From: an uncultured Lachnospiraceae bacterium | GTDB taxonomy: Bacteria; Bacillota; Clostridia; Lachnospirales; Lachnospiraceae | Reading direction: 5' to 3' | Assembly (NCBI GenBank): GCA_947588845.1 | Contig: CANQAR010000014.1 | Location: 1-48,399, forward strand | Length of the DNA: 48,399 nucleotides | Shown here: piece by piece, positions 2,967-26,369 of the stretch | How positions within the stretch are numbered: the first letter of the stretch is position 1 | Layout of the letters: the number at the start of each line of letters is the position of its first letter | Program-made: the position numbers and the translations under genes | Notes under the pieces: model-generated | The model's database searches: none | The model's input: only the letters and a program-made list of their open reading frames with translations | What the model was told of the DNA's origin: nothing

Positions 2967-2979
2967 ATTCCACTGTCCG

Positions 2980-4272: not shown

Positions 4273-4305
4273 AGAATCAGACCAGTTTGTAAGGGGGGAT
4301 CGGGG

Positions 4306-11031: not shown

Positions 11032-11040
11032 TGTAACAAA

Positions 11041-11075: not shown

Positions 11076-11129
11076 ATTAGAAAAATGCTGGTTTAACAGC
11101 GCTGTCTCATAGAAACAGATGGTATAAAT

Positions 11130-11375
11130 TTATTTGCTGCCGCCCATCATGAAGTCGATCAATCTGGTGATATCTTCCGGCTCATGAGCAACGAGCTCCA
11201 GCTCCGGAATCTCAACATCCCCTTTGGAGAAGATCGTAGCAAGAGATACGTACTGGCTCAGCTTGGATTTCAGATTCAGACGGTCTCCCTCGCCTGTAAT
11301 CAGCTCAACAGTACCTTTGCACTGGTCGACTACCTTGAAAAAACCCTCAATGTTCGAAATGTTTGTAATTTTCAT
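11130..11375 (-). CDS. Small conserved-looking protein, function unknown
   Basis: An 81-residue acidic protein starting MKITNISNIEGFF and ending MMGGSK. Start chosen at 11375 because AGAAAGGAG lies 8 bases upstream; the 91-residue frame begins before this site. It has no signal peptide or membrane segment and is predicted as a small alpha/beta fold. I recall similar short proteins in Lachnospiraceae genomes but no function for them. A possible second small gene lies upstream in the same orientation (11415-11615). Confidence 0.65.
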   Translation of the reverse strand: MKITNISNIEGFFKVVDQCKGTVELITGEGDRLNLKSKLSQYVSLATIFSKGDVEIPELELVAHEPEDITRLIDFMMGGSK

Positions 11376-11414
11376 TGACTGTTCTCCTTTCTGAAGTTCC
11401 CCCATAAATACAGA

Positions 11415-11615
11415 TTAACGCGTTTTCAGACCTGATACAGCTTTCAAGCCTGTGTCTGAAATGATTTTCATGTTACCGTAGCTTTTTTCCTCTGTAGCCT
11501 TTGTTTCCTCGATTACGGCTTCACTATAAGCCGGAGGCCTGGAAAAATCAAGTACTTTTTTAAAATTCGTATAATTGGATGACGCACATAAAAAACGGGA
11601 ATTAAAATTGTGCAT
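11415..11615 (-). CDS. Possible 66-residue protein, unrecognised
   Basis: An open frame whose C-terminal two thirds look like protein (SEAVIEETKATEEKSYGN). It lies 39 bp upstream of the 81-residue gene and may share its transcript. No ribosome-binding site precedes the ATG at 11615 and no family is recognised, so this is only a possible gene. Confidence 0.3.
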   Translation of the reverse strand: MHNFNSRFLCASSNYTNFKKVLDFSRPPAYSEAVIEETKATEEKSYGNMKIISDTGLKAVSGLKTR

Positions 11616-11731
11616 GTTAACCACTGGAGAAAAGGGAGAGCAGGCCGTAAAAAAATCATGGAGCCGGTTCGTTTTGCAGGTATTCCCAAAATTTATGGGA
11701 ACTTTTCCCATTAAGTTTCTGATATAATATA

Positions 11732-12288
11732 CTTGAAAGTTAAAAGTTTGGCTCCGTTGCCGACCAAGACATGGAAAGTTCCTTCCTTATAAAAAGGTGT
11801 GTGTTCCTTCATGGCACGGAACCGGCAAGTATGGATGGAGTCTAGGTTCTAGGAGAAAGCACGGAAAAATCAAATATCGTGTTGCAGGCAACAAGGTATT
11901 TGATCCTCGCGGCATTCGGCAGATGTCTATGTGAGCACGTTCACTTGGCTCATTAACCACGGAAATGGAGCATGGAGTCATAGCAGACTGGCCGGAGCGT
12001 AAGGTCACGAATCACGGAAGTGATCCCCAGCCTGTTTGAGCGGAGTATCAGACCGGTGGTAAGGATGACAAACCGGCCAAAGGCAACCTTATGGGAGAAA
12101 CAGGGTTCAAAATGGGAGAGAATATTTTCAATAAAATTTATCATAATCGTGGAAAACCACAGGATGGTAAACTCATATGCAGGATAACTCTTTTCGTAAT
12201 TTATGTCTTTCTTAAGTGTGGGAACTAAAGAATACCATAGAACCATGCGGAAGGATTATTCTTTTATTGAAAACTTTCAACTCTCAAG
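11732..12288. mobile_element. 557-bp transposase-less element with terminal inverted repeats
   Basis: Left end CTTGAAAGTTAAAAGTT (11732-11748); right end, read inward on the minus strand, CTTGAGAGTTGAAAGTT (12288-12272): 15 of 17 bases agree. A third copy of the repeat ends the insertion-element fragment at 61-77. The interior has no credible long gene. It holds several small hairpins, for example TCAAATA/TATTTGA enclosing TGTTGC/GCAACA, and ATCAC-GGAA-GTGAT with a GNRA loop. It could be a MITE-like relative of the element at the left edge, or one carrying an RNA or decayed coding piece. No target-site duplication is evident. Confidence 0.55.
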
Positions 12289-12301
12289 CAGAGGTGGAAA
12301 A

Positions 12302-13006
12302 ATGTTTATTGAAGCTGAGTTGGAAAGAAAAGAAGTTCAACGAGAGGTAGAGAAACTGCGTAAATCGACTAGGCGCACGATACTGGAGTCTGATATGGTC
12401 CTCCCGAGAAAGAAGGAAACAAAACTTTCTGGAACAGAAATGAAAACCAAGTTGACTGAGGCTGTAAATCACATAGAGCCAAACCGTATAGCTGAAGGTT
12501 TCTCACTCCGGGATCTTACGGATAGTGAGAAACAGAGACTCAGAAATATTGGTATGTCGAGTACTAATATCGATAGGTGCAAGATCGATGAGAGGGGTGT
12601 TTTTCATCTAGACTGCCGGAACAGCAACATGGAGGGTACGAGGCATCCGACAACAGGCGTTTCTTTTGAGCATAAGTTGATCAGTATCAAAGGTGTGATG
12701 GTTGAAGGCGTGTTCCCTAAGTTTCAGAGCATTGTGGAATTACGACTACCGGAAAGGTTATATCGTGCAACAGAGAGTGAACAATTCCGCTATCTCAATG
12801 CGCAGTTGCAGGAGGCAATCGAAAAAGACGTCTGGCTTTACGAAAGGTTTACGGAGCAGCAAATCAAGGTGATCAAGAACGGCAGAAACCCTGCTGGATT
12901 CACATGGCACCATAATGAGTCATGCGGCGTGATGCAACTTGTAGAAACTGCGAAACATGCCGCAACAGGACATACCGGCGGTGACTCTATTTGGTGTGGC
13001 CGCTAA
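12302..13006 (+). CDS. WHH-type (HNH/EndoVII superfamily) nuclease toxin domain
   Basis: A 234-residue protein whose last 80 residues match the WHH nuclease tips of polymorphic toxins: FTWHHNESCGVMQLV followed by AATGHTGGDSIWCGR, with the paired His as metal and catalytic ligands. Upstream is a stretch typical of these toxins (VEGVFPKFQSIVELRLPE). The predicted activity is DNA cleavage. No secretion or LXG-type domain is present: the frame runs back into the inverted-repeat element ending at 12288, so the N-terminal part was probably lost by that insertion. Start ATG 12302 follows GAGGTGG; the upstream ATG at 12203 lies inside the element. The SUKH-type immunity gene follows 17 bp later. Confidence 0.8.
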   Translation: MFIEAELERKEVQREVEKLRKSTRRTILESDMVLPRKKETKLSGTEMKTKLTEAVNHIEPNRIAEGFSLRDLTDSEKQRLRNIGMSSTNIDRCKIDERGVFHLDCRNSNMEGTRHPTTGVSFEHKLISIKGVMVEGVFPKFQSIVELRLPERLYRATESEQFRYLNAQLQEAIEKDVWLYERFTEQQIKVIKNGRNPAGFTWHHNESCGVMQLVETAKHAATGHTGGDSIWCGR

Positions 13007-13023
13007 TTGAAAGGAGGACAGGT

Positions 13024-13425
13024 GTGAATAAGATTACATGGAATTTCACGGAGCCGTTGAGTTCAATGGATGTGCTTGACGTATTTGAGCACCGCTATTT
13101 GCATGAGATTCCGGATACGCTTAAATCTCTTATTCTGGAACATAATGGTGGATATCCAAATAAGGATGTATTTGACAAACCTCAGAAGGGCCTGTTTTTT
13201 TCAAATTTGCTTTCTTTTAATGAGGACAGTGTGGAAGGAGTGCATCTGTATCTGCCATCGTTTGAGAGCGAAGACGGGATTACCGCGCTTCCTTTTGCTA
13301 CAGACGGATTCGGGAACTTGATCTGTGAGGTGGATGGTAAAATTTTTTTCTGGCGGCATGAGACTGAGGAACTTGACTTGGTAGCAGAATCTATTGACGA
13401 ACTGTTGGATATGCTGCATAGCTAA
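13024..13425 (+). CDS. SUKH (SMI1/KNR4)-type immunity protein
   Basis: A 133-residue protein with the SUKH-family layout: N-terminal helix, IPDTLKSLILEHNGGYP near residue 25, FSNLLSF, then a central ALPFATDGFGNLICEV and a C-terminal helix (SIDELLDML). SUKH proteins are the usual immunity partners of nuclease toxins and bind the toxin directly. The GTG start at 13024 is preceded by AAAGGAGG with 6-bp spacing, which is better than any upstream start. Position immediately after the WHH nuclease gene supports its role as antidote. Confidence 0.8.
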   Translation: MNKITWNFTEPLSSMDVLDVFEHRYLHEIPDTLKSLILEHNGGYPNKDVFDKPQKGLFFSNLLSFNEDSVEGVHLYLPSFESEDGITALPFATDGFGNLICEVDGKIFFWRHETEELDLVAESIDELLDMLHS

Positions 13426-13535
13426 TTTGAGATTATCAGAAAAAATTTAAACAGTACATATCATTTATAATTATCAATAAAGTGTTGATATATTAGGCTT
13501 TTATAAAATATCAGATAGAAAGGAAGAATCTAATT

Positions 13536-13736
13536 ATGAAAGAAGTCGAGAAAGCGAAAAAGATTATGGAGATTTCCAGGGATTTGGATAGCGCAAAGCG
13601 TGATTTGGAATCCAAGCGCAAACGTTTGGAAAGTGATATTCTGTTTGATCGTGATGTAACTTTGAGTTCTAACGATGTGAAATACGCTACCAGGAGGGTC
13701 GAGTCCTTGCAAAAAGAATTGGACAGACTTATGTAA
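13536..13736 (+). CDS. Small coiled-coil protein at the head of the dynamin-HerA cluster
   Basis: A 66-residue, highly charged, all-helical protein with heptad-like spacing (DLDSAKRDLESKRKRLESD, later VESLQKELDRLM). No family is recognised. The ATG follows AGAAAGGAAG. An AT-rich 110-bp gap separates it from the immunity gene and probably holds a promoter (TATAAT at 13466-13471, no clear -35). The next gene follows after 114 bp with its own strong ribosome-binding site. Membership of the dynamin-HerA cluster is inferred from position and orientation. Confidence 0.55.
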   Translation: MKEVEKAKKIMEISRDLDSAKRDLESKRKRLESDILFDRDVTLSSNDVKYATRRVESLQKELDRLM

Positions 13737-13850
13737 AATGGATTACCCGTTTGCTGACAGCTTTTGAGCAAGAGGATTCTGCTTTGTATTTCTCGTTAAA
13801 ATTTATTTTCTATAAACAATTACTTACTAATTAACAAGGAGGGTATTTCT

Positions 13851-14630
13851 ATGAACGAAACACATATGGCTCGGATTGATATCACTTTCAGGAAATTGCA
13901 TCAGGATGCAGTCGTGGCTTACAGGGGTATATACGATAGTATTTGGCAGCAGCTGAAGGATTCCAATAGCCGCGGCTTGAGCGGCGAAATTGCGCAGTTG
14001 GAGGCAAAAAAGCTGAACCAGGAGCTTCTTAGGTTGACGGACACCGTGAAGCAGGCGGCTATTTCCGAGATGATTGCCTGCGGATGCAAACAATACCTGA
14101 CTCAAGCAGGGTGGACGGAAATTCAGCAGGTTGCTGGGCTGCCGCATACGGAACTCTGCAAGGTCAAAGTGGACACCATGAGTTCCGTCAGAAAAAAGAA
14201 GTCCGAGATTGATGCAAAACCTGCAACCAATAAGAGCAGAGAGCTCGAAGAACTGGCGCGGCAATATGGTGTTGCTGAAAAAGTCTTGGCGTGTATCGCA
14301 GGCCTTGGTGCCGCTGCGGTAGTAGTCAGCCTGTTTATCCCAGGGTGGTCTCTCCCGGTTAAGGTTTTGTGCGTAGGTGGCGTGACGGTTGCGGTCTTGA
14401 GCGCAGGTGGCGCGATTTATTGCGACAGTAAGAAAAAAGAGGCCATTTCAAAATTCGAGCATGTTGGGAAGCAGGCTGCCTCAAAAACACAGGATAGCGT
14501 ACAGCTGGATTCCCTTGTTAAGCAGATTACGGACAGCCAGTACAAGCAAAACCTCAAGCTTTATGACACATGGCTGGAGGAGGTCAAACATGCACTTATC
14601 ACTGAATGTGACAAGCTTTCCTCGATGTGA
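13851..14630 (+). CDS. Membrane protein with a central two-helix hairpin
   Basis: A 259-residue protein. Residues 1-140 are helical and charged; two hydrophobic segments follow (about 144-163, LACIAGLGAAAVVVSLFIPG, and 168-187) joined by a very short turn; the last 70 residues are again helical. Both ends would face the cytoplasm. ATG 13851 follows AAGGAGGG with 7-bp spacing. The stop lies at or just before the start of the next gene. In a cluster with a dynamin-like GTPase and a large ATPase, it is a natural candidate for a membrane anchor or pore, but this is inference; no family is recognised. Confidence 0.65.
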   Translation: MNETHMARIDITFRKLHQDAVVAYRGIYDSIWQQLKDSNSRGLSGEIAQLEAKKLNQELLRLTDTVKQAAISEMIACGCKQYLTQAGWTEIQQVAGLPHTELCKVKVDTMSSVRKKKSEIDAKPATNKSRELEELARQYGVAEKVLACIAGLGAAAVVVSLFIPGWSLPVKVLCVGGVTVAVLSAGGAIYCDSKKKEAISKFEHVGKQAASKTQDSVQLDSLVKQITDSQYKQNLKLYDTWLEEVKHALITECDKLSSM

Positions 14631-14659
14631 CCACGGCAGGGAATATGGAGGTGGACGCA

Positions 14660-15625
14660 TTGGATCTTATTATCGTAGATGGGGATTGCAGGAACTTGTG
14701 GACTTTGCCTGAACTGGAGCGCCTTATGGACGCGCAGCATGATACAATCTGGTTTTGCAAGGATGCTGTTTTGCGGGAGCACAAATATAATGTTGCGGCA
14801 GTAGCCCAGACTTCGATTGGTGCGTCTTTTGAAAAGGCAATCTTGGTGACGAGGTTGCAGAGCGGCGTGATGGGTTATCATAGACAGATGTTCCGCAACA
14901 CTGTAGGGTGCAAGCGTTGGATGATCGTGATCGTCGGCCAAGTCAGTGATATCTATAAAGAGCAGTACTGCAACGAAATTAATTCTATCCTAGGGGAATC
15001 GGTGCGATATGAGGTCATTTTCGATAAATCGTCCGAGCTGAAGATTGCACTGGAAGCAAAGAGAGAAGTTGTGGATGGTCGCTCTTTCTGCGTCATTGCG
15101 ACAAGATCAGATGCCCGATTTGCCGAGGACGTCCGGAAGACGTTAGAATCAGCTTATGCGGACTGGCGGTTCGAATGCCATGTCGGAATGGAAAAAGATG
15201 GTTACAAGCATGCGGATGTCATCCTGGTAATTGGCCGGAATGAGGAGGAATATGCTGTTCCGCCGGTAAAGGAAAATGCCAGCCGCGTTAGGATATGGCT
15301 CGAAGCACCCCGCGGCGGCAGGACACAGGAAGTTCATGTGATCGAGCGGATGAACCGGAATGGATGGAATTTAGGCAACCGACGTATCTGGAGCAGCTGT
15401 CTTGCAAACGAAATTCTGCTGCAGGAACTTGATAATGGCGAAATCAGCAAGGAAGCACTCTGCGCCGATGATCGATTCGTAATGTGGGATCGATATGGTC
15501 TACCGCTTCCCGCATGTGATTACGAATCAGCGGATCAGGCGGAAGTATTTCTTCGGCATCAGTGCTGCTTCCCTGGCCTGTTAAACAGCAAAAATGAAAA
15601 GGGGGAATTGTTGAATGCGATATGA
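14660..15625 (+). CDS. Unrecognised cluster protein, possible two Rossmann-like domains
   Basis: About 321 residues from TTG 14660, chosen for the GGAGGTGG five bases upstream; a GTG at 14627 that overlaps the preceding stop would add 11 residues. The sequence opens with a beta-strand and acidic pair (LIIVDGDCRNLW), has a hydrophobic strand near the middle (WMIVIVGQVSD), and a second alpha/beta unit (SFCVIATRSDARFAEDV, then VILVIGRNEEE). This suggests two Rossmann-like folds, perhaps nucleotide-related, without a conserved motif I can name. Its end overlaps the dynamin-like gene by 11 bp, so it is translated with it and probably works with the GTPase. Confidence 0.6.
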   Translation: MDLIIVDGDCRNLWTLPELERLMDAQHDTIWFCKDAVLREHKYNVAAVAQTSIGASFEKAILVTRLQSGVMGYHRQMFRNTVGCKRWMIVIVGQVSDIYKEQYCNEINSILGESVRYEVIFDKSSELKIALEAKREVVDGRSFCVIATRSDARFAEDVRKTLESAYADWRFECHVGMEKDGYKHADVILVIGRNEEEYAVPPVKENASRVRIWLEAPRGGRTQEVHVIERMNRNGWNLGNRRIWSSCLANEILLQELDNGEISKEALCADDRFVMWDRYGLPLPACDYESADQAEVFLRHQCCFPGLLNSKNEKGELLNAI

Positions 15626-18275
15626 GGACGCGCAGAGAAAGAAAGATGATACGGAAAAACTTCTGACTCCTGGTGCAAAGGGTCAGAAGGTTTCCGAAAA
15701 TATAACGGAACAAAAGAACGTGGAACTTCCTGGACCCATGAAACAGGTCAGTGAAGATGCGGTAGATCAATTTCAGGTGGCTGTATATAACGCAGGCTCC
15801 AAAGCTTTGAGTATGCTGGATGCTGACGCACTGACGAAAGGCCTCGAAATTGATCGTCGGAAGGAGGTAAACGATACGCTCAAGCAATTGGGCGCTTTTC
15901 GCTACAACATCGGATTCGCCGGCCCTCAATCGTGCGGCAAATCATCGCTGATCAATGCTCTCATCCGATATCCGTTGATGCCAACCTGCAATCTGGCTAC
16001 GACTTGCACTCCGGTGGAGCTGGTTTATGGCAAGGAAATACGAATCATCGTGAAGGATGAGGACCGTAAGGGGAAAATTGTATTCGATAGGAGATGCGGC
16101 GCTATATCGCAGACTGAGTTTGATAAGCTGATGGATTATGCCTGCAAGGTTATGCCTGTTGCGGTTATTGAGAATCTCCAATTTTTCTGCGATTCCAGTA
16201 TCCTTACCCGGTTTAGGGATCTCAGGCAGCATATACATATGGATCGAAGCGCCCCACGGCAAGTCGCACTGCTGTTTTTAATTCTCTTTACAGTATATGC
16301 GCATCAGAACAACAAGGAATTGACCAAAGCTGAGCTGGAGCTGAACGATCTTCGGTTAAAGACACTGACGTATTTTGGAATCTGCCAGAGTACGATAAAC
16401 TATTGCGTGGTTGTCCAATGGGACAATCCCATGCTGGCTTCTGGACTGATGATCACAGACCTGCCGGGCCTCGGATCTTCTGCTGAGGATAAGAAAGAGA
16501 GCGATGTTGTTATAAAGGGACACGACACGATCACAAAGGAAGCAGTTCTCCGAACCGATACGATGGCTTTCATGTCTGAGCCGCAGGTCATGGCCGACGC
16601 TGTTCCAGCGCTGGAGATAATGATTTCTAATGCCAACATCCTTGATGCTGTCAGCGTAGAGGAGCGGATCATACCTATTATGAACAAGGTGGACCAAATG
16701 TTGGGAGCACAAAAGGAAACCGCCATTAACATGATGTTGGGTATGATGCGCAACGCGGGTGTCAGCATGAATAACCGAAAGGTTTGGGAGACCAGTTCTT
16801 TATACGGTGAATACGCCTATGAGTGTCTTAACGTGAAGCAGTCATTTTACGTTCAGAGCAAGGTATTTAAGCTGGTGGAAGATGGTTACAGCAAGGACGA
16901 GATCGATGAGGAACTTCCTGGCATTATGCGCAAGATGAGACGGGGATATGAAAAATCCGGCGTGAACGAACTTAGGGAGTTTTTTCGTTCGGCTTTCATT
17001 GGAAGAGGGAAATACCAAAAGACATTTTCCACAGTTATTGCGTTGAGGGCACTTGCGTTGGACATGGTTACGCCGCTACGAATCGCAATAAACAGCAGTG
17101 CGGCACTAGCGGAGGTAAACGGGGATTTTGCGCGAGAAGCGTTGGGATATCTGAAAGAGGCCGCCATAATACCGCTGAATGACGCTCAGAAAACGGAACA
17201 GGTCATCAACAAGATGATAGATGAGCACATGGAGATTGTTGATCCGATGATTAGCGCTGCTACGATAAAATACGAGTCGATTCTTTCTGATGCGATAGAT
17301 GATTATGTACAGCGTCTCCGGAATATCACAGATAAATTTGACCTGACCTACATAGGCCTCGGCAATCGCGCCCGCGTTGATAGCGGGCATCCAAACAACC
17401 ATAAGCTTTATCAAAATTTGCTGGATGAAAGCAAAACCATCCATGTTGATTTGAAGGAAGTCAATAAAATCCATGCGAATGCATTGCGCTACTGCGGCGA
17501 TGCCGTAACAGGAATTTATAAGAGCGCAAGGGACAGGCTAGTCACATTTCAGAAGGACTACCCCAGAATTATGAGGGATTGCATCGATGAATATAGAGGA
17601 AAGGCCGGCCCTGACGTTGTTGCTTTGATGGAGAGCCTGCTTCCTTCGCTCCAGCAGTATGTAGCGGCTAAAATCCTGGCGGCAGATGCTGCCATTCAGG
17701 GTCAACGATCCAGTTTCCAGAATGTTGCCAGTCAGCTTGCGTGTGAGATTGTAGCCCTCAATGATGAGTTTGTCTCAGTTTTACTCGGAATGGTTCAGGG
17801 GAAACTGGAAACGGTCGCGGGAGGCTGGTTCACTAAGAAGGATTTCCTGGTAGTCGATGGTGACAATGGCCTGAAGGCAACAATCAAGAAGCTTGGACTT
17901 ACAAAAGCTGACCGGGATTATATCCGTGGGCTTGTCTCTGCGAAGGCTGCTAATGTCATTACGAATCCGCTTCGTGGATGGTATCAGACTGCCGCGAACG
18001 ATGTCAATCAAATCATGACTTCGCTTACTTTAGAATTCGCTAATCAGTTTAATCTAATGCGAGAAAACTTGAAGGAGAAGACCAAAGATATGGAAGATGG
18101 TATCGAACAAGCCAAAGAAACCTTGGAAGTGCTCTGCGAGGTGTTCCGTCGGATGCAGAAAGATATCCAGCCGCATCTGGACTGCATACTGGAACTGGAA
18201 GGTATAGGAAACTCACCCTTGAAAGGAGACCTGTTCGAGGGGATGCTGGAAGCGCAGGGTGATGTAAATGGCTGA
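15615..18275 (+). CDS. Dynamin-family large GTPase
   Basis: An 886-residue protein with a dynamin-type G domain near the N-terminus: G1 GPQSCGKSS (103-111), G2 Thr in TTCTPVE (about 126-132), G3 DLPGLGSS (282-289) and G4 NKVD (357-360). The long G2-G3 spacing contains a hydrophobic stretch (VALLFLILFTVYA, 217-229). The C-terminal 450 residues are almost all helical, as in the stalk and assembly regions of bacterial dynamin-like proteins. GTP-driven assembly on membranes is the family role. It overlaps genes on both sides (11 bp upstream, 8 bp with the HerA-like ATPase), so GTPase and ATPase are almost certainly made together. ATG 15615 is preceded by AGGGGGAA. Confidence 0.85.
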   Translation: MRYEDAQRKKDDTEKLLTPGAKGQKVSENITEQKNVELPGPMKQVSEDAVDQFQVAVYNAGSKALSMLDADALTKGLEIDRRKEVNDTLKQLGAFRYNIGFAGPQSCGKSSLINALIRYPLMPTCNLATTCTPVELVYGKEIRIIVKDEDRKGKIVFDRRCGAISQTEFDKLMDYACKVMPVAVIENLQFFCDSSILTRFRDLRQHIHMDRSAPRQVALLFLILFTVYAHQNNKELTKAELELNDLRLKTLTYFGICQSTINYCVVVQWDNPMLASGLMITDLPGLGSSAEDKKESDVVIKGHDTITKEAVLRTDTMAFMSEPQVMADAVPALEIMISNANILDAVSVEERIIPIMNKVDQMLGAQKETAINMMLGMMRNAGVSMNNRKVWETSSLYGEYAYECLNVKQSFYVQSKVFKLVEDGYSKDEIDEELPGIMRKMRRGYEKSGVNELREFFRSAFIGRGKYQKTFSTVIALRALALDMVTPLRIAINSSAALAEVNGDFAREALGYLKEAAIIPLNDAQKTEQVINKMIDEHMEIVDPMISAATIKYESILSDAIDDYVQRLRNITDKFDLTYIGLGNRARVDSGHPNNHKLYQNLLDESKTIHVDLKEVNKIHANALRYCGDAVTGIYKSARDRLVTFQKDYPRIMRDCIDEYRGKAGPDVVALMESLLPSLQQYVAAKILAADAAIQGQRSSFQNVASQLACEIVALNDEFVSVLLGMVQGKLETVAGGWFTKKDFLVVDGDNGLKATIKKLGLTKADRDYIRGLVSAKAANVITNPLRGWYQTAANDVNQIMTSLTLEFANQFNLMRENLKEKTKDMEDGIEQAKETLEVLCEVFRRMQKDIQPHLDCILELEGIGNSPLKGDLFEGMLEAQGDVNG

Positions 18276-21200
18276 TTACAAAAAGGATAAGGACCGGCTT
18301 CTCCTAGATCAATATCAGGAGAAGATTCGTTATATTATGGAGGATCGAACTTTCGATGATTCTTGGAATTGGGAAACCGTACTGAAGAAGTTCCATTACC
18401 GTCCCCCTGCAAAGCTCGGCATCCCTGAACCAGATCTTGAACAGGTTTATGAGAGGGCGGAGGCCCTTTTAAGGTTTCGGCCTGAGCTGGAATGCACACC
18501 GTTGGGTACAGCAATCTCGATTCGGAAGCTTGGCAAGCAGCCTGTGAAGCAGAAGGAACCGCAGCCTTATCCGCCTATGGTGATGGCCGCCCGGCGCGTC
18601 GGACGTATTCTCACGGCACATCCGGAGTCCGATATTGTCCTGCGTGCTGAATGCAGGATGGACGAATCTGGGACGCGGATGGACTTTCAAGTTGGTTCCA
18701 GTTCTCTCAGCGAGGAGGCGCTGGCTTCGATGATTCGGGGGGCCTATGGCCGGATCGAGTATGAACCAGCCCGTATTCAGGGGCCTTATGCTGTTACATG
18801 CTATGCGGAGGCTTCTGCTATTTCCCGCGATAAGCGTGTGTTCGAGCAACAGGAAAAAGACCCGACATCGGTGGAGTCCTGGATCACGACGCTCCTGTCC
18901 GCCATGGCGTGCGGACGGAATTACGCTGTAGAATTTCACTTCCACCCGCTGCTGGATTCTAGAGAAAAGGCTGAGATGGAGACTCTGGCTAGGAATATGG
19001 AGAAGGCGTATCGGGAATTGGCATTCTATAGTGAGGTGACCTGGAACAACGGCCTTAGCGGTGGCGGGAATATTTCGATGAAAATTTCTGCGTTGCATAA
19101 CATTCTGCAGCAGCTCCATTTTTTCCGCAACGCTACGAAAGATGGTGTGCAGGCAGGGGAAAATTATTCTTTCAGTTATGGCGAAAGCAGCAAAAATGTA
19201 GATCAGCGTGCTATGAGATTGATGGCTGAACTGGAATGGCAGTTGATCCGGTTGCGCCAAATTAGGAATTCTGTCGGCTGGAATGTGATGATATCCGTTT
19301 CGGCTTCTGATGAGGAAACGCTTGACGCAGTCACGGCAATCGTATCCGGAGCCGCTGAAAGGGCAAACTTCAGCCTGAACTGGCGACAGAAGCCTTGCTG
19401 TGCTATGTTCGCATCCAGCCAGGATATTCTGCCACTCTTGACCTTTCCAACAGCTGAATTCGTGGGCTTCGAGTTTGTGGAGAACGAAGAATTTTCACTG
19501 TTTTCTCCTGAAATGGGAGAAGACGGACTGGGAATCGGGAATATTCTGTGGAACGGTGCTGAAATCTCCAGGTTTTGTCTCCCACGCCAAGCGCTGAACA
19601 GGCATGCATTCATTTGTGGTATGACGGGGGCGGGCAAGACGAATACTTTGTTTAAGATCATCGAAGAAATAGCAGCCCCGTTCTTGGTGATCGAGCCGGT
19701 AAAAGGGGAATACAGATCATTGCTAAGCAAGTATCCGGATATGCGGATATGGACCATGCGCACTTCAGATGTGACGATGGAGAACGTAGAAGTCCTGCAG
19801 CTTAACCCATTCTGGTTTCCAGAGGGCGCGAATCTTGCGTTTCATATCGATAGTATTAAGACGATCATATCCTCTGCATTTGATCTGAGTGCGGCGATGC
19901 CTAATATCGTAGAGCAGTGCCTGTACAATGTTTACCTGAAGGCAGGATGGAACATCGTCACCAATCGCAACGTATATCAGGATATTTTGCCCGAGACTTA
20001 TCTTTACCCTACGTTCCAGGATTTTACCAATGAGGTGGCCGTTTATTTGGACAAAAGCGAATTCGGTGAGGAGGTTCTGGGGAACTACAAGGGCGCTTTG
20101 CTCTCTCGTCTTCGCTCCTTCACTAACGGCTCAAAAGGGGCCTTGCTTAATACGGCAAGGCATCCGGACTACGAAGTTATTATGAATGGATGCACCATCG
20201 TGGAACTGGAAGGGTTAGCGGATGATGCGGATAAATGTCTTGTAATGGGAACAATCCTCGTGCAGTATTACCAATATCTAAAGAGTCACTTCCACGATTC
20301 GGATAAGACAAAGAACCTCAAGCATATTATCGTGATTGAGGAGGCCCATCGCCTCTTCAAGAATGTCAAACCCCAAGGGAAAGGCGTAGAAGGCCCGGAT
20401 CCTACGGGGCAGCTTGTGGAGAGCCTCAGCAACATTATGGCGGAAATCCGTGCTTTCGGAGAGGGAATGCTGATCGTGGATCAGAGTCCGACAAAAATTG
20501 CGGAAGATGTAATTAAGAATTCCGGCACAAAAATCATTCATAGGATCGACCATGGGGAAGATATCAAGTTGCTGCAGTCAGCTATGCTGATGCCGGAAAA
20601 TACAGTTGGATTTTCCGCTCTCTCGCAAGGCGAAGCTCTAATCCGGTCTGATGCCATGATGCGTCCCTGCAAGGTGAAGATTTACCGTTCGGACATCAAG
20701 GAAAATTATTCTCTGGCGGATACGTTCCGAATCGGGGAACTCAGAGACTTCGCGATTAATGACGCATTCGTAGCAAATACCATTCTTCAGGATGGGGAGA
20801 TATTCGACGCCATCAGGCTGGAACTGAAGCGGCTTTTCCGCTCGTTTGCTTGGATGAATTGGGATGAGTGGTATACAGTCATTAACGAATTCCTTCGCAG
20901 GGTCATTGGCATTTTGAAAGATCGGCGCATGTTCGATCGGCTGCAGGGACGTTTTCAGGTACTCCGGGAAATTGTCTCCGCTTCGGTTATGCGAATGTTC
21001 AGTGAGGATGGGACGAAAGCTTCCGGTCTTGTTCATATGTTCCTCATGCGTTTCTTGGACTTTTATGAAGATGGCAGGTTGAACCGCAAGGTTAAGACAG
21101 AAGCAATCGAGATGCTGAACGTTTATTTTCGTGATGTGCTATGCAGAGATATACTCTTTCCGAACGAGGAGAAACTGGAGGGGGATTCGGTTTTCGAGGA

Positions 21201-21435
21201 ATTTTCCCAGTCCGTTGGCTTGGAGGATGATCTGGAACAATCTTATTTACTCTACAGTTTCCTCTGTACTGCGATGGAGGGCTCCGATGACATCACTGGG
21301 GTAGATATGCAGCATTTTCTGGAATTGAATACGCTACTTTCCTGGGAGTGCTATCTAAAGCATTACGGCAGTTTGGATGAACAGCTCCAAAAGTTGCTTC
21401 GCAGCGAGTCGTTTCTTATGTTGTTGCGTGGTTGA
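18268..21435 (+). CDS. HerA/DUF87-type ATPase
   Basis: A 1055-residue ATPase. The N-terminal 430 residues are an alpha/beta region without a recognised domain. The core has Walker A GMTGAGKTN (451-459), a characteristic following VIEPVKGEYRSLL, and Walker B IIVIEEAHRLF (687-697), with SPTKIAEDVIKNSGTKIIHRI nearby acting as the sensor region seen in HerA-FtsK relatives. The last 300 residues are helical. HerA-type proteins form hexamers that move DNA or protein, and recur in anti-phage systems with nuclease or NADase partners. Here no nuclease is fused; the partner by overlap (8 bp) is a dynamin-like GTPase. The next cluster gene starts 27 bp downstream. Confidence 0.85.
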   Translation: MADYKKDKDRLLLDQYQEKIRYIMEDRTFDDSWNWETVLKKFHYRPPAKLGIPEPDLEQVYERAEALLRFRPELECTPLGTAISIRKLGKQPVKQKEPQPYPPMVMAARRVGRILTAHPESDIVLRAECRMDESGTRMDFQVGSSSLSEEALASMIRGAYGRIEYEPARIQGPYAVTCYAEASAISRDKRVFEQQEKDPTSVESWITTLLSAMACGRNYAVEFHFHPLLDSREKAEMETLARNMEKAYRELAFYSEVTWNNGLSGGGNISMKISALHNILQQLHFFRNATKDGVQAGENYSFSYGESSKNVDQRAMRLMAELEWQLIRLRQIRNSVGWNVMISVSASDEETLDAVTAIVSGAAERANFSLNWRQKPCCAMFASSQDILPLLTFPTAEFVGFEFVENEEFSLFSPEMGEDGLGIGNILWNGAEISRFCLPRQALNRHAFICGMTGAGKTNTLFKIIEEIAAPFLVIEPVKGEYRSLLSKYPDMRIWTMRTSDVTMENVEVLQLNPFWFPEGANLAFHIDSIKTIISSAFDLSAAMPNIVEQCLYNVYLKAGWNIVTNRNVYQDILPETYLYPTFQDFTNEVAVYLDKSEFGEEVLGNYKGALLSRLRSFTNGSKGALLNTARHPDYEVIMNGCTIVELEGLADDADKCLVMGTILVQYYQYLKSHFHDSDKTKNLKHIIVIEEAHRLFKNVKPQGKGVEGPDPTGQLVESLSNIMAEIRAFGEGMLIVDQSPTKIAEDVIKNSGTKIIHRIDHGEDIKLLQSAMLMPENTVGFSALSQGEALIRSDAMMRPCKVKIYRSDIKENYSLADTFRIGELRDFAINDAFVANTILQDGEIFDAIRLELKRLFRSFAWMNWDEWYTVINEFLRRVIGILKDRRMFDRLQGRFQVLREIVSASVMRMFSEDGTKASGLVHMFLMRFLDFYEDGRLNRKVKTEAIEMLNVYFRDVLCRDILFPNEEKLEGDSVFEEFSQSVGLEDDLEQSYLLYSFLCTAMEGSDDITGVDMQHFLELNTLLSWECYLKHYGSLDEQLQKLLRSESFLMLLRG

Positions 21436-21462
21436 TTATAAACAATGGGGGAGAGATAGCCT

Positions 21463-22707
21463 ATGAAACAGAAATGTCCGAAAGAAATGTGGCCAAACGA
21501 AGTTGCTGAACATCTCCAGAGCGACGACTGGGAATCCTGCTATCAGACTGCTGAGCATTTTTACGCACAGGGAGTTTATCAGGAAGCATTTTCTTGGTAC
21601 AAGAAGGCTTCTGTGTTGCCAGATTGCAATCCCATCATTTTCTTCGAGTTGGGATATCTTTTCCAACATGGCGAAGGCGTAGATTCGGATAATATTGAAG
21701 CACTCAAATGGTACGAAAAAGCAGCATCGTTAGACGTCCCGCAAGCGATGTATAACTTGGCGTACTTTTACCAAAATGGGATCGTAGTAGATCAAGATAT
21801 CCAGAGGGCAGCACAGTTGTTACGGGATGCTACGTCGCTGATGGATCGGCTTCAGCTTGAACGTGACTCCTATGGTGTGTGGAAAGCAGAGTACGATGCG
21901 CAGCTTGCTGAGATTCAAAAAGAGGTGGAAGAGAAGAGGATTCATTCCGAAAATCTGGAATTGCGGAATCGTGAACTTGATATTGAGTTGTTGGCAGTCA
22001 AGCGGGAATGTCAGCGTCTGGAGCAAGAGGTAGCTCGGCACAAGCGTACCTTGGAGGAATCAGAAAAGTGGAAAGCGGAGTATGATGTGCAGCTTGTGGA
22101 GATTCAAAGAGGTGCGGAAGAGAAAAGGATTCGTTCCGAAAATCTGGAATTGCAGAATCGTGAACTTGATATTGAGTTGTTGGCGGTCAAGCAGGAATGT
22201 CAGCGTTTGGAGCAAGAAGCGGCTCAGTACAAGCGTGCCTTGAAGGAATCAGAAAAACAGTGTGGGATATTTGCGACTCGTACGGAATCAACTGAAGCCG
22301 CATTACGTAAGGAACAGGAAACGAGAAAGGAAGTTGAAGTGATGGCATCCACGCGTCAAACTCAAATGGAGGAATGGTTGCGCGCTTCCAATGAACTTAT
22401 CACTAATCTAGTAAAGAAACATAATGAGAGTTTCGAGAGTGTGCAATCTTCCTACACAGTCCAGATTGACCGTCTTCAGCGGGCTTACGAAACCGATTTT
22501 ACAGAATTGCAAAGAGCAAAAGAACAACTCGGTGGACAGAATGCGGATTTATCCAAAAAGTTAGACAGAAAAATATCGGAACTTAGTGTGTTGCAGGAGA
22601 CGTTGCAGCAACTCCAGATGCAGCTTGAACAGGAGCAGAAAAAGAAAAGGTTTGCATTTATATTAGCTGGTATATTTGGAGTGCTGACTGTGATTCTTTT
22701 TATATGA
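21463..22707 (+). CDS. Tail-anchored Sel1-repeat and coiled-coil protein
   Basis: A 414-residue protein closing the cluster. Residues about 25-115 contain two or three Sel1-like repeats (AFSWYKKAS, ALKWYEKAASLDVPQAMYNLA), usual protein-interaction modules. Residues 120-385 are coiled coil, including an exact-period 63-residue tandem duplication. The extreme C-terminus is a single hydrophobic helix (FAFILAGIFGVLTVILFI) preceded by KKKR, so the protein is anchored in the membrane by its tail with the bulk in the cytoplasm. ATG 21463 follows GGGGGAGAG. It may tether the dynamin-HerA machinery to the membrane or measure distance through its coiled coil. Confidence 0.75.
   Translation: MKQKCPKEMWPNEVAEHLQSDDWESCYQTAEHFYAQGVYQEAFSWYKKASVLPDCNPIIFFELGYLFQHGEGVDSDNIEALKWYEKAASLDVPQAMYNLAYFYQNGIVVDQDIQRAAQLLRDATSLMDRLQLERDSYGVWKAEYDAQLAEIQKEVEEKRIHSENLELRNRELDIELLAVKRECQRLEQEVARHKRTLEESEKWKAEYDVQLVEIQRGAEEKRIRSENLELQNRELDIELLAVKQECQRLEQEAAQYKRALKESEKQCGIFATRTESTEAALRKEQETRKEVEVMASTRQTQMEEWLRASNELITNLVKKHNESFESVQSSYTVQIDRLQRAYETDFTELQRAKEQLGGQNADLSKKLDRKISELSVLQETLQQLQMQLEQEQKKKRFAFILAGIFGVLTVILFI
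21880..22257 (+). repeat. 189-bp tandem duplication inside the coiled-coil gene
   Basis: Unit 1 at 21880-22068 and unit 2 at 22069-22257, each 63 codons from WKAEYD to ESEK. They differ at scattered positions, so the duplication is recent but not new. Sixty-three is a multiple of seven, so the heptad register is kept. Confidence 0.85.
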
Positions 22708-22789
22708 AAGGAACCGTTTCCTCGGATTACTCATAGACCTAATATTTTATCTCCGGGATTGGGCTGGAAATGCGGATCAGATCCTGTGT

Positions 22790-22815
22790 CAGGACTCGCC
22801 TGCTGGCGAGTCCTG
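22790..22815. terminator. Hairpin between convergent genes
   Basis: Perfect 11-bp arms CAGGACTCGCC (22790-22800) and GGCGAGTCCTG (22805-22815), four-base loop TGCT. It separates the end of the dynamin-HerA cluster from the minus-strand ATPase gene and probably serves both. Confidence 0.65.
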
Positions 22816-22825
22816 AATTTCAGTT

Positions 22826-24412
22826 TCAGCGTGTAAATTCTTCGATTACACAGTCATGCTGTTTACTTTTCTTATCGTAACTCAGACCGACCAGCAGGAT
22901 TTTTCCAGTGTAGCCGGATACTGCCTGAATATACTTCTTTTCTTTGATCTGCCGCAGTGCCGTTTCCGCTTTTTTGTTCCATTTCAGTTCTACAAGAAGC
23001 GCAGGCATTTCATTAGTATATTCTGGTCTTGGCAGGAATACGTAATCTGCAAAGCCTCTTCCAGTGGGCATTTCACGGATTGGCATAAAATAATACTGCA
23101 TGGCCGACAGATACGCGATAGTTAGAACACTGCTGAGCGAATTTTCATCATTATACTGAATTGAGGATATAAATTGATTGTGGATCTTTTCAATTCCATC
23201 CGCGACACTTTCTTCGTCCAAATCAAGTGTTGCCTCCAGCAAATCTTCGGATGCTCTCTCGAAACAGAGCAGTTCGTTCCATTTTTTCTTTTTTACTGCT
23301 TTTAAAAATTCCTGGCGGATTTCCTCATTGGGAATGAATGTCGTACATTTTTGTTCATCATATGCCAGATATCCCAAATGAATTAATAAGGTAAGTACAT
23401 CGTCTTTATCCGCGAATGATATCATATCGTTCTGAAAAGTACTGACCTCGATCTCCACAGAACCGCCCGCAATCATCTGGATGACTGCTGTCTTCAGTCC
23501 GTCAAAGTCCATATTGATCAGAGGAAGGATGGATTCATAAGTTCCGGTCTGGGACCAGTAACTTTTGTACTGCCCCCAGAGCATGAGATTTACAACCGAA
23601 TCCGGATTGTAGACATGCAGATTTCTCAGCCGATAACCGTCATACCAGTGCCTGACATCTTCAAAGTTTTGCTTATGTTTTATACAGAGTTCTTTCACTT
23701 CGTCTTCTGTAAAACCAAAATACGGCGCTAATATCTTTGCGTCCAGCATTGAAAATTCATAGAAATTATTTAATGCCGACTCGGTTTTCAGTTTTTTGAT
23801 CGGCAGAATACCTGTCAGAAAGGCCAGATGAAGAAACCGGGTAGGTTCCGTTCCTTTAAACAGACCGCGAAGGAAATCAAGGTATTCTTTCTGCACTGCT
23901 GTGTTGGTTGCTTCCTCGCGGATCAGCGCATCCCACTCGTCAATAATAATGACAAATTTTTGTCCCGTCTGCTGTGTCACATCAGATAATATTTCTCCCA
24001 GTGTACTTTCCTGTGAAAAGGAAACCTGAGGAAATTCTGCCTGTAATTCCTCCAGAACTTTCTGTGTAATATAGGAAACAGTTTTTTCAGCGGCTTTGGC
24101 GCTCATAAAGCACCACTGTACATCAAAATGAATAACATTATATTTGTTAAGATGCTTTTTAAAGCTGTCATCTGCGCTGATTTTTCTTCCTGAAAAAAGC
24201 GGTTCGGAATCACAGCCCCTGCTGTAGTAGGCAGTGAGCATGTCAGCCGTGATGGATTTGCCAAACCGTCTGGGGCGGCTGTTGCAGATCATTGCCTGTT
24301 TCGTATCGATCACTTTGTTGGTATAACTTAGGAATCCTGTTTTATCTACATAAATTTCAGAGTTAAGAGCAACACAAAATGCGCTGTTATCTGGATTTAG
24401 AAATCTGCCCAT
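22826..24412 (-). CDS. AAA-ATPase-like protein with PD-(D/E)XK nuclease domain
   Basis: A 528-residue protein of the AAA-ATPase-like/DUF1703 type, common in gut Firmicutes and Bacteroidetes. Walker A SRPRRFGKS (45-53) and Walker B FVIIIDEWDAL (153-163) are intact. The C-terminal domain has the PD-(D/E)XK nuclease signature: an upstream Asp in GRGFADYVFLP and the ELK motif in ALLVELKW (E475, K477). ATG 24412 is preceded on the minus strand by AAGGAG with 7-bp spacing. A good minus-strand promoter lies at 24510-24538. It is divergent from a distant paralogue at 24681. The biological role of the family is not settled; a role in mobile elements or defence is often suspected. Confidence 0.85.
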   Translation of the reverse strand: MGRFLNPDNSAFCVALNSEIYVDKTGFLSYTNKVIDTKQAMICNSRPRRFGKSITADMLTAYYSRGCDSEPLFSGRKISADDSFKKHLNKYNVIHFDVQWCFMSAKAAEKTVSYITQKVLEELQAEFPQVSFSQESTLGEILSDVTQQTGQKFVIIIDEWDALIREEATNTAVQKEYLDFLRGLFKGTEPTRFLHLAFLTGILPIKKLKTESALNNFYEFSMLDAKILAPYFGFTEDEVKELCIKHKQNFEDVRHWYDGYRLRNLHVYNPDSVVNLMLWGQYKSYWSQTGTYESILPLINMDFDGLKTAVIQMIAGGSVEIEVSTFQNDMISFADKDDVLTLLIHLGYLAYDEQKCTTFIPNEEIRQEFLKAVKKKKWNELLCFERASEDLLEATLDLDEESVADGIEKIHNQFISSIQYNDENSLSSVLTIAYLSAMQYYFMPIREMPTGRGFADYVFLPRPEYTNEMPALLVELKWNKKAETALRQIKEKKYIQAVSGYTGKILLVGLSYDKKSKQHDCVIEEFTR

Positions 24413-24509
24413 GACATTCTCCTTAATTCCCGCAGGCGACAGGCCGATCGGCCAGACTTTCGGGGATACCTGATTTTTTAAAATTTACCGGTTTCAAAAG
24501 GCTACACTT

Positions 24510-24538
24510 ATTGTATCAAAATATAATGATAAATACAA
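24510..24538 (-). promoter_or_regulatory. Promoter of the minus-strand ATPase gene
   Basis: On the minus strand TTGTAT (24538-24533), 17-bp spacer, TACAAT (24515-24510). The transcript would reach the ATG at 24412 after about 90 bases. Confidence 0.55.
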
Positions 24539-24603
24539 TCCTTTTTGTTTCCTGCTTTTTCAAATAATCAGGAAAGCAGGCTATGCGGAAACAGAAAGCC
24601 CTA

Positions 24604-24632
24604 TTGAACATTTCTGCCCGATAATGTATCAT
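24604..24632 (+). promoter_or_regulatory. Promoter of the plus-strand ATPase gene
   Basis: TTGAAC (24604-24609), 17-bp spacer, TATCAT (24627-24632), about 50 bases before the ATG at 24681. Confidence 0.5.
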
Positions 24633-24680
24633 AGCAAGGAGAAAATGTAGTATAAATGATCAAAGAAAGGTGTGCAGATT

Positions 24681-26369
24681 ATGAAGATCAGACTTCCGCT
24701 CGGAATTGACAATTTTAAGAAGTTAAGAGAAGCAGGATACTATTATGTGGATAAAACCGGTTTTATCGCGGAGCTTCTGAGAAATCCTCCGGAAGCCAGT
24801 CTGATCACCCGTCCGCGCAGGTTTGGAAAGACTCTGACGCTGAGCATGCTGGAAGATTTTTTTGATATCCGGCAGGACAGCAGGGGGCGTTTCCTGGGGT
24901 TGGAGATCATGCGGGAGCCAGAGTTGTGTGAACGCTGGATGAACCGGTGGCCGGTGTTGTTTCTTTCTTTTAAAAGTGTGGAGGGACTGGACTTTAAAGG
25001 GGCAGCAGGGATGATGGCGAATCTGCTGTCGGATCTGTGTATTTCTCATAAATATCTGGAGGAAAGTGAAAGGATTGATCCGGCGGACCGGAAATTTTTT
25101 GAAGATCTGAAAATAAAAAAAGCAGATACAGCGGATATTAAAAATGCGCTGTATGTTCTCATGCGTATGATGTACGCATGCTTTGGAAGACCGGTGATTC
25201 TGCTTGTCGATGAATATGATGTGCCGCTCGCGAAAGCGAACGAGTGCGGATACTATAAGGAGATGCTGGATCTGATCCGCGGGATGCTGGGGAAAGCGCT
25301 GAAAACGAATGAATATCTGAAATTTTCTGTTATTACGGGATGTCTGAAAATCGCGAAAGAGAGTATTTTTACGGGAATCAATCATCTGGTTGCGGATACG
25401 GTTACAGGGCAGCGTTTTGAAGAGTATTTTGGCTTTACGCAGAAAGATGTGGAAAAACTGCTGGGGGACTGTGGACTGACAGAATATAACCAGGTGATAA
25501 AGGACTGGTATGACGGATACCATTTTGGAGCGGTTGATGTATATTGTCCGTGGGATGTGCTGCGGTACAGCAATGATTTGATGGTGGATTCCGGGAAAAG
25601 ACCGGAGGCTTACTGGGCAAATACCAGTGAGAACCGGATGATCCGGAACTTTATTCGCAGGGCAAATAAAAGTATCCGGCGGGAAATCGAACTGCTGATG
25701 GATGGCAGGACGATCAGCAAAGAGATCAGCGAAGAGCTCACTTATGCGGACATGGATGAAGATATAAACAATATATGGAGTATACTGCTTACAACGGGCT
25801 ATCTGACACAGCAGGGGCAGAATGAAAATGGCAGTTACCGCCTTGTGATCCCCAACAAGGAGATCCACAAAATATTTGCAGATCAGATCATGCGCTGGTT
25901 CCAGGATGAAGCGCTGAAGAAGCCGGATGTTTTGGAGATGCTGTTTTCTTCTCTGCAAAACGGAGACGCGCGAGGGGTCAAAATGTCGTTTGATTCTCTG
26001 CTTGCGACAACGATCAGCATCCGTGATACGTATTCGCAAAAAGCAAAAAAGGAAAATTTTTATCATGGGATGCTTTTGGGACTTCTGAGAAGCAATGACA
26101 ACTGGGTTGTGCAGTCCAATGCGGAGTCGGGAATCGGGTACTGTGATATACGGGTGGAGATTGAGGAAAGAGAAACGGGAATTATTATCGAAGTGAAATA
26201 TGCGGAGAAGGATGCACTGGATTCCCACTGTGCAGAGGCCATGAGGCAGATTGAAGAAAAACAGTATGCGGCAGGACTGGCAGAAGATGGCATGAAAAAG
26301 ATTTATCTGTATGGTATTGCCTGTTACAAAAAGCATTGTCAGGTGGTGTGCAGAAAATATTGTTCATAA
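24681..26369 (+). CDS. AAA-ATPase-like protein with PD-(D/E)XK nuclease domain, second paralogue
   Basis: A 562-residue paralogue of the divergent gene at 22826-24412, with low overall similarity. Both proteins share the opening pattern (YVDKTGF) and RPRRFGK Walker A (44-51 here); Walker B is ILLVDEYD (D177). The C-terminal nuclease-like domain has an upstream Asp in GYCDIRVEI and IIIEVKY (E504, K506). ATG 24681 fits AAAGAAAGG at about 10 bases; a GTG at 24672 is too close to that site. The two paralogues are oriented back to back with separate promoters in a 268-bp gap, so they are probably expressed independently. Confidence 0.85.
   Translation: MKIRLPLGIDNFKKLREAGYYYVDKTGFIAELLRNPPEASLITRPRRFGKTLTLSMLEDFFDIRQDSRGRFLGLEIMREPELCERWMNRWPVLFLSFKSVEGLDFKGAAGMMANLLSDLCISHKYLEESERIDPADRKFFEDLKIKKADTADIKNALYVLMRMMYACFGRPVILLVDEYDVPLAKANECGYYKEMLDLIRGMLGKALKTNEYLKFSVITGCLKIAKESIFTGINHLVADTVTGQRFEEYFGFTQKDVEKLLGDCGLTEYNQVIKDWYDGYHFGAVDVYCPWDVLRYSNDLMVDSGKRPEAYWANTSENRMIRNFIRRANKSIRREIELLMDGRTISKEISEELTYADMDEDINNIWSILLTTGYLTQQGQNENGSYRLVIPNKEIHKIFADQIMRWFQDEALKKPDVLEMLFSSLQNGDARGVKMSFDSLLATTISIRDTYSQKAKKENFYHGMLLGLLRSNDNWVVQSNAESGIGYCDIRVEIEERETGIIIEVKYAEKDALDSHCAEAMRQIEEKQYAAGLAEDGMKKIYLYGIACYKKHCQVVCRKYCS

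Follow-up and report, generated by a model that had tools for sequence, protein, structure and literature searches.

Anti-phage systems built around a HerA ATPase have SIR2, DUF4297 or NurA as partners, YezG proteins are linked to type VII secretion, and the LeoABC-type bacterial dynamins are presumably those named 'Eleos'. FtsK/HerA ATPases have been counted among the motors of toxin export, in type VII systems (PMC3482391), and the dynamin LeoA has been linked to vesicle-associated toxin release (PMC4159319); the word dynamin does not occur in PMC3482391. Here we describe a cluster of six genes (genes 1 to 6) on a contig of 48,399 nucleotides from an uncultured Lachnospiraceae bacterium (GenBank assembly GCA_947588845.1, contig CANQAR010000014.1; the whole stretch is called the window below). 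The cluster joins a dynamin-family GTPase to an FtsK-HerA-type ATPase, and a nuclease toxin gene and an immunity-type gene stand directly 5' of gene 1. Our favoured reading, to which we give about an even chance of being correct, is that the cluster may be one subtype of a widespread and so far unnamed polymorphic toxin system with export against competitors. The features concerned are as follows.

12203-13006, + strand: nuclease toxin, 267 aa, with a Colicin-DNase/WHH C-terminal domain (Pfam PF12639, 1.7e-26; PF14414, 4.2e-12)
12991-13425, + strand: immunity protein of the SMI1/KNR4 (SUKH) family, 144 aa, TTG start (Pfam PF09346, 3e-15)
13536-13736, + strand: gene 1, small coiled coil, 66 aa (open reading frame (ORF) list)
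13851-14630, + strand: gene 2, two-helix membrane protein, 259 aa, a possible membrane anchor (hydropathy)
14627-15625, + strand: gene 3, alpha/beta protein without a P-loop, 332 aa (ORF list, motif scan)
15615-18275, + strand: gene 4, dynamin-family GTPase, 886 aa (Dynamin_N, motifs)
18268-21435, + strand: gene 5, FtsK-HerA-type ATPase, 1055 aa (HerA_C/DUF87, Walker motifs)
21463-22707, + strand: gene 6, Sel1 repeats, coiled coil and C-terminal transmembrane (TM) segment, 414 aa (Pfam, hydropathy)

The ORF list places all six genes on the plus strand in the order and at the coordinates that the initial annotation had given, and Pfam and hydropathy agree with its dynamin, HerA/DUF87, Sel1 and two-helix labels. 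The overlaps that it reported, 11 bp between genes 3 and 4 and 8 bp between genes 4 and 5, were found as well, and genes 2 and 3 overlap by 4 bp besides. Gene 3, given there as 321 residues, is 332 aa long from a GTG start and 326 from the first ATG. Gene 4 matched Dynamin_N (1.6e-11) and has the intact GTPase motifs of the dynamin superfamily (G1 GPQSCGKS, G3 DLPG, G4 NKVD); its profile matches in the Protein Data Bank (PDB) were to Slr0869 and bacterial dynamin-like proteins, and hydropathy marked a borderline TM segment at residues 474-492. Gene 5 matched HerA_C (5.7e-7) and DUF87 (8.1e-7), and the Walker A (GMTGAGKT) and Walker B (IIVIEEAH) motifs of the FtsK-HerA superfamily are intact; its PDB profile matches were to HerA and other DUF87 ATPases, and it resembles translocation motors such as CedD and VirB4. 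Gene 6 matched Sel1 (9.5e-19), and its TM segment (396-414) forms the extreme C-terminus of the protein, while the two segments of gene 2 lie at 145-163 and 172-190. Genes 1 to 3 matched no Pfam family above cut-off, and the motif scan found no P-loop in gene 3.

The set resembles type VIIb secretion in having an FtsK/HerA-superfamily ATPase (PMC3482391) and nuclease toxins with neighbouring immunity genes. In addition, the domain of the window toxin itself occurs on an LXG toxin and, as judged by eye, on a protein with a WXG100-like start, and YezG-like partners occur among the present loci. It differs from type VIIb in that dynamins and membrane adaptors take the place of the type VII core. 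A search of the window genome, which is a draft, gave no LXG match (WXG100 proteins were not searched for) and no EssC over the cut-off of 778.4 bits.

LeoABC also comprises dynamin-family GTPases, often paired, in operons, whereas the present loci add a HerA-type ATPase and toxin-immunity genes. The matches to it were weak, and PADLOC gives no cut-off for either model: gene 4 scored 45.7 bits against LeoA (at most 51.6 bits among the relatives tested), and gene 2 scored 20.3 bits against LeoBC over its C-terminal part. These matches would fit a LeoABC-like release in which the dynamin buds toxin-carrying vesicles and the ATPase loads them, as would the link between LeoABC and vesicle-associated toxin release in E. 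coli H10407 (PMC4159319). However, the passages on LeoABC in PMC4159319 name no such ATPase, the word HerA does not occur in that paper, and relatives of the present system occur in Gram-positive hosts too; we regard vesicle release as very improbable.

HerA anti-phage systems share a HerA-superfamily ATPase adjoining an effector gene, but the present ATPase is about 1000 aa long with a different N-terminal half, the present effector has an immunity-type gene, and there is a dynamin partner. Gene 5 fell below the curated cut-offs of NF042943 (HerA_antiphage; 37.4 against 800 bits) and NF042944 (29 against 850 bits). The best NCBIfam match of the ATPase family was NF033849 'serine-rich protein' (2.2e-20 for the window and 6e-30 for L018, one of our numbered loci), a name without a function; the scores, 72 and 103 bits, stay below its cut-off of 650. 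Judged by title or the start of the abstract, none of the matches listed in the open-licence PubMed Central literature described a set of dynamin, HerA-type ATPase and toxin-immunity genes. We call the chassis undescribed because no literature description matched and because PADLOC and NCBIfam models matched weakly; the locus is filed as a putative polymorphic toxin system on such a chassis, which would become a new class if delivery were shown. No system name for the set was found.

Three tests of linkage were started from the toxin or the dynamin, and not from the ATPase. The window toxin was compared with 299 genomes of the family (E up to 1e-8). Results showed seven places in six genomes, and all seven adjoin an ATPase-family gene: six lie behind the ATPase, and that of the window precedes it by about 5 kb. 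Of the 299 genomes, 32 gave a match to the ATPase itself. A type-A dynamin was found in six of the same genomes, each time with the ATPase alongside (the sixth contig ends inside the ATPase). Among 72,556 plasmid records the type-A dynamin was found in seven, representing three independent loci, and the ATPase stood alongside in 7/7. The genome searches scored only two to eight candidates per genome, so that misses are possible.

We also counted toxins in loci fetched by means of the ATPase. In 31 family loci, 14 of 15 toxin-family matches lay within 3.5 kb behind the ATPase, and one (L172) lay elsewhere in 512 kb; L150 repeats training locus L046, and without it the count is 13 of 14. Locus L172 has a 106-aa piece of a toxin family with a partner gene about 10 kb upstream. 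The toxin families had been defined on training loci L013-L108, so the training counts are partly circular, and a set of 31 loci (L147-L177) was held out. Across 125 loci, a toxin of these families stood behind the ATPase in 28/37 dynamin loci, 15/46 other loci, 0/36 loci of the C1/Hsp70 group and 0/6 loci of the window subtype. Adding loci recognised by Pfam (L153, L170, L184), by BLAST to these (L078, L154, L156, L167) or by eye (L026) raised the counts to 32/37, 17/46, 0/36 and 1/6, and L037, recognised by a later BLAST, would make the 'other' group 18/46. The C1/Hsp70 group serves as an internal control: its ATPases are of the same family but have other partners, and these toxin families are missing there. 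Within the held-out set a toxin stood behind the ATPase in 13/31 loci, or in 18/31 including those recognised by Pfam or BLAST. Four loci whose ATPase ORF was lost by the overlap rule (L077, L085, L094, L096) and two with no ATPase ORF (L109, L110) were left out of the counts, and two repeats at zero tree distance (L104/L105, L046/L150) were kept in the 125; the contigs of L046 and L150 are also equally long.

The toxin genes behind the ATPase belonged to eight families in about five folds, namely HNH/ENDO VII nucleases, PD-(D/E)XK-like, Endonuclea_NS, metallopeptidase-like and papain fold. The families of HNH/ENDO VII type were Colicin-DNase/WHH, LHH, a WHH variant and HNH-like, and the remaining ones were PD-(D/E)XK-like, metallopeptidase-like, Endonuclea_NS_2 and papain-fold; the PD-(D/E)XK-like and HNH-like labels were given by eye, and the metallopeptidase label came from sub-cut-off Pfam matches. 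Each toxin family was usually followed by its own small gene, which was SMI1/KNR4, DUF6985, DUF7832, YezG-like or unnamed. Tandem toxin cassettes were found in L101 and L159, and WYL regulators precede several of the ATPase loci. In Lactococcus cremoris, E. coli and Treponema saccharophilum, plasmids carry, in this order, a dynamin, a second dynamin, one or more small proteins, the ATPase, an HNH-type protein and a small gene, the last annotated as SMI1/KNR4 in two of the three loci. Among 5,426 E. coli genomes, the E. coli form was found only on the TW10590 plasmid. The window genome holds three additional ATPase loci (L018, L019 and L020, on contigs C38, C61 and C25, respectively), making four in total.

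C38: two dynamins, two adaptors, ATPase, WHH toxin, SMI1/KNR4
C61: Sel1 protein, ATPase, LHH toxin, SUKH immunity
C25: dynamin, membrane protein, ATPase, HNH-like protein (by eye), small protein

The toxin of the window belongs to a known polymorphic-toxin family, and the same domain is present on an annotated LXG polymorphic toxin. Its WHH motif is intact, at residue 235, and a sequence comparison with the PDB gave no relatives at E up to 0.01. The gene directly 3' of it matches the i22 family, whose members in L017 and L060 come after a toxin of the same family; the SMI1/KNR4 protein would neutralise the window toxin. In plasmids the toxin domain was found in six records: those from Treponema and Exiguobacterium carry it behind this ATPase, that from Bacillus velezensis carries it on an LXG toxin, and that from Bacillaceae C02 carries it on the protein with the WXG100-like start; the two Entomospira records are taken up below. 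No degraded ATPase was found upstream of the window toxin.

Toxins whose catalytic domains are unrelated have, in some of the systems, an N-terminal leader in common. The leader test left out one toxin family at a time, with models trained on the remaining toxin families only. For motif 2, present on Endonuclea_NS, WHH variant and metallopeptidase-like toxins, 7/7 toxins ranked above all 1405 background N-termini. BLAST showed that the papain-fold and WHH toxins of L078 are alike over their first 47 residues (45% identity, 5e-8) and that residues 8-49 of the L153 toxin match the L158 toxin (8e-4).

Relatives of the window's own subtype came from a contig scan with an alignment of nine ATPases, of which the best 80 of at least 503 relative-encoding stretches were kept, and from 341 genomes of the class, among which a dynamin alignment picked out L184 (genome G340). 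The subtype sample thus comprises six loci including the window. The order gene 3, dynamin, ATPase is conserved in the five nearest relatives (L022, L023, L024, L025 and L184), and in each of them the gene 3 relative stands immediately 5' of the dynamin; the three genes are consecutive in L184, and L025 has a 54-aa ORF between dynamin and ATPase. The proposal that the GTPase, the ATPase and the alpha/beta protein form one unit, a conserved one, is thereby supported.

The outer genes were less uniform. Relatives of gene 1 stand ahead of the gene 2 counterpart in L023 (1.3e-5) and L024 (1.7e-4), with weak matches in L022 (0.29) and L184 (0.4), all from a small restricted search. Gene 2 has relatives in L024 (6.6e-15), L023 (1.1e-4) and L022 (4.5e-4). 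In L025 (by eye) and L184 a membrane protein at a similar position gave no detectable single-sequence match to gene 2, and that of L184 gave no match to the gene 2 model either. Sel1-repeat relatives of gene 6 adjoin the ATPase in L024 and in L019, one of the other ATPase loci of the window genome, where the gene comes before the ATPase. The Bacteroides label of L022 may be wrong, because this locus comes from a metagenome bin. The window subtype is rare among the family genomes: beyond itself, the window dynamin had seven weak matches in the 299, the best at 2.3e-6. Close relatives of the window GTPase were found neither in viral contigs nor in plasmids, and those of gene 3 were not found in plasmids.

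Two candidate identities gained no support. Gene 3 as a degenerate GTPase gave no match in a profile comparison with the dynamin alignments (probability below 1%), and gene 2 as a relative of the type-A adaptors was unsupported (profile E 0.0094, probability 4%). The gene 2 profile matched the membrane protein of L026 (probability 86.5%), and that of gene 3 gave only a 67-column C-terminal match to the 378-aa protein of L026 (E 1.2e-3, probability 19%).

The position of the window pair allows another explanation, in which the pair is an unrelated chance neighbour and genes 1 to 6 form a stand-alone dynamin/HerA-type system for membrane or DNA handling, such as membrane repair or plasmid or phage exclusion. 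The toxin stands upstream rather than downstream and has neither leader motif, and half of the subtype loci (L022, L023, L024) have no recognised toxin or immunity gene. The presence of four ATPase loci in the genome, rather than one, also makes a chance neighbour less improbable. Against this stand the seven of seven places at which the toxin domain adjoined the ATPase family, as well as two loci of the same subtype: L184, whose ATPase is directly followed by a toxin and a small gene, and L025, with a gene of that small family before gene 3. We consider a chance neighbour improbable, and the nuclease and SMI1/KNR4 pair probably belongs to the system. The initial annotation was right that a toxin-immunity pair lies directly upstream, as Pfam confirmed; in treating it as a mere neighbour it was probably wrong, for the evidence points to a part of the system. 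The preferred reading moves accordingly, away from phage defence and closer to a polymorphic toxin system.

We favour export because the exchanged toxins come with dedicated partners, because leaders are shared, because the same toxin domain occurs on type VII leaders, because the ATPase resembles translocation motors, and because the window genome shows neither an LXG match nor an EssC over the cut-off. Gene content, intact motifs, conserved linkage, the identity of toxin and immunity families, toxin exchange and, in some relatives, the shared leaders appear from sequence comparison; complex formation, export, the direction of transport, neutralisation and the target are what we infer from them. 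More tentatively, and with somewhat less than even confidence, we propose that the dynamin GTPase, the FtsK-HerA-type ring ATPase and small membrane adaptors may constitute a new class of protein-delivery machine. Short leaders would be what such a machine recognises and polymorphic toxins the cargo that it exports, from Gram-positive as well as Gram-negative cells; the cluster of the window would be one subtype, with an additional alpha/beta protein and a Sel1 membrane protein as recruits.

In the mechanism that we propose, the gene 5 ATPase would form a ring motor at the cell membrane, where the two-helix protein of gene 2 and the tail-anchored Sel1 protein of gene 6 would hold it. The motor would engage its dedicated toxin and drive it out of the cytoplasm, and the gene 4 dynamin with its companion, gene 3, would remodel the membrane there for release or onward transfer of the toxin. 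In a competitor the toxin (12203-13006) would then cut DNA, and the SMI1/KNR4 protein (12991-13425) would protect the producer and its kin. If this is true, a chassis of dynamin-like GTPase and HerA-type ATPase also carries the kind of toxin cassette that is known from type VII secretion, and bacterial dynamins, whose role is unknown in most bacteria, gain a testable job. Export of this kind would add one more route among the known uses of polymorphic toxins and would explain loci annotated 'dynamin family protein - ATP-binding protein - HNH endonuclease - SMI1/KNR4'.

Several results weigh against the export reading. No outer-membrane or cell-surface component was established, and the draft window genome did yield three EssC matches below the cut-off, the best at 105.3 bits. 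Only three of six toxins ranked above background with motif 1, the other three did not, most toxins carry neither leader motif, and neither occurs on the window toxin. Moreover, the leader sets had been picked by eye beforehand, and several of their members are tandem neighbours in one locus. The window pair precedes its cluster, whereas none of the 124 other loci had a toxin among the five genes before the ATPase. The toxin link is also thinner within the window's own subtype, where two of six loci have a toxin: upstream in the window, and behind the ATPase in L184, where a papain-fold toxin (PF15644 over its cut-off) is followed by a small gene. Locus L025 has no recognised toxin, only an immunity-like gene before gene 3 whose family comes after papain-fold toxins at other loci, and no toxin or immunity gene was recognised in the fetched stretches of L022, L023 and L024. 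Of the seven weak matches to the window GTPase, only that in genome G253 lies near an ATPase-family gene. Nor is the linkage to the ATPase exclusive, given that type VII leaders carry the toxin domain together with an SMI1/KNR4-type protein on two Bacillaceae plasmids, and that Entomospira (two records, one of them read) has the pair without this ATPase. A further point is the radical-SAM protein of a sister branch, whose match to viperin models favours defence (L030 tested).

The main rival is intracellular, abortive phage defence, in which the dynamin/ATPase would sense infection or membrane damage and free the nuclease from its immunity protein, phage or host DNA would be destroyed, and the immunity protein would act as an antitoxin. 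Defence libraries do contain HerA-type ATPases and dynamins; LeoA is matched by the window GTPase (1.2e-12), and several PADLOC HerA models are matched by the window ATPase. WYL regulators ahead of several loci, the McrC and UvrD/PD-(D/E)XK genes near the Exiguobacterium locus, and the sister-branch ATPase with its dynamin and radical-SAM protein (L030 tested; viperin models, 2.4e-18) point the same way, although the viperin match may be a mere radical-SAM match (Pfam Radical_SAM, 2.3e-15). On the other hand, a single ATPase family is followed by several unrelated toxin folds that each have a partner gene of their own, the cassettes of L101 and L159 are in tandem, and the same toxin domain with an SMI1/KNR4-type protein rides on type VII leaders. 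Dedicated immunity proteins that co-vary with their toxins are typical of antagonism between bacteria and count against abortive defence. We judge this explanation less likely than export, though a serious rival to it; if it were right, the loci would form a large family of defence systems with exchangeable effectors guarded by immunity proteins. The membrane-acting anti-phage or conflict system of the initial annotation was thus upheld as to conflict but not as to phage, the known-defence models having matched weakly (LeoA at 45.7 bits, HerA_antiphage at 37.4 bits).

The wider ATPase family showed other arrangements. The sister branch (L030, L032, L039, L052, L071, L152) has the ATPase, a membrane protein, an unknown protein, a dynamin of about 515 aa, others and the radical-SAM protein; its domains were read in L030 only, as Dynamin_N, hexapeptide repeats, Radical_SAM (2.3e-15) and the viperin-model match (2.4e-18). 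The C1/Hsp70 branch (L016, L038, L043, L044, L048, L057, L066 and others) combines the ATPase with a small membrane protein, a coiled coil and a large protein, the last an Hsp70/actin-type ATPase by eye, for which Pfam gave only weak Lcl_C matches (L016, L057). ATPase-family genes also occur on contigs classed as viral (L102-L108) and in the phage-collection records MT837341.1 and MT836703.1; a toxin and partner gene stand behind the viral-contig ATPase in L104, L105, L107 and L108, which amounts to carriage by mobile elements. The Exiguobacterium acetylicum plasmid locus (L187) has a dynamin-like protein, ATPase, WHH toxin and SMI1/KNR4 near McrC and UvrD/PD-(D/E)XK genes. Ig-like proteins behind the ATPase or the immunity gene in L187 (annotated), L164 and L166 (by eye) are possible surface parts. 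In L157 (G196:C18) the type-A dynamin has one in-frame stop, and the ATPase, toxin and partner gene are open. Finally, the L025 cluster encloses, at 2759-4511, a short ORF that is rich in Cys and matches no Pfam family, together with a protein that by eye is radical-SAM/SPASM-like; the two resemble a pair for ribosomally synthesised and post-translationally modified peptides (RiPPs).

Mobile-element ends, which the initial annotation had noted beside the toxin pair, were not recovered: apart from an internal tandem repeat, a repeat search of 10900-24700 found no more than a single direct pair of 23 nt and three inverted pairs that are short (18-19 nt) and imperfect (83-89%), and Rfam gave no match, no dedicated search for insertion sequences having been made. 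One further feature was listed 3' of gene 6.

22789-22816, + strand: terminator-like hairpin, 12-pair stem with 8 G-C, weak

We call the hairpin weak because the terminator scan gave 9 sites against a shuffle mean of 11.4, that is, no excess. Beyond the cluster lie two large ORFs, at 22826-24412 (- strand) and 24672-26369 (+ strand); the latter is a predicted AAA-ATPase with a PDDEXK_9 nuclease domain, and the former is similar by eye. Farther upstream, 4306-7296 encodes a 996-aa protein with protein kinase and NACHT domains, followed on its 3' side by an unrecognised 301-aa ORF, a histidine-kinase-like ATPase and two response regulators; this is possibly another conflict or signalling locus. 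Within gene 6, the coiled coil contains a tandem 189-bp repeat (21879-22256) whose copies are 88% identical, probably a recent internal duplication.

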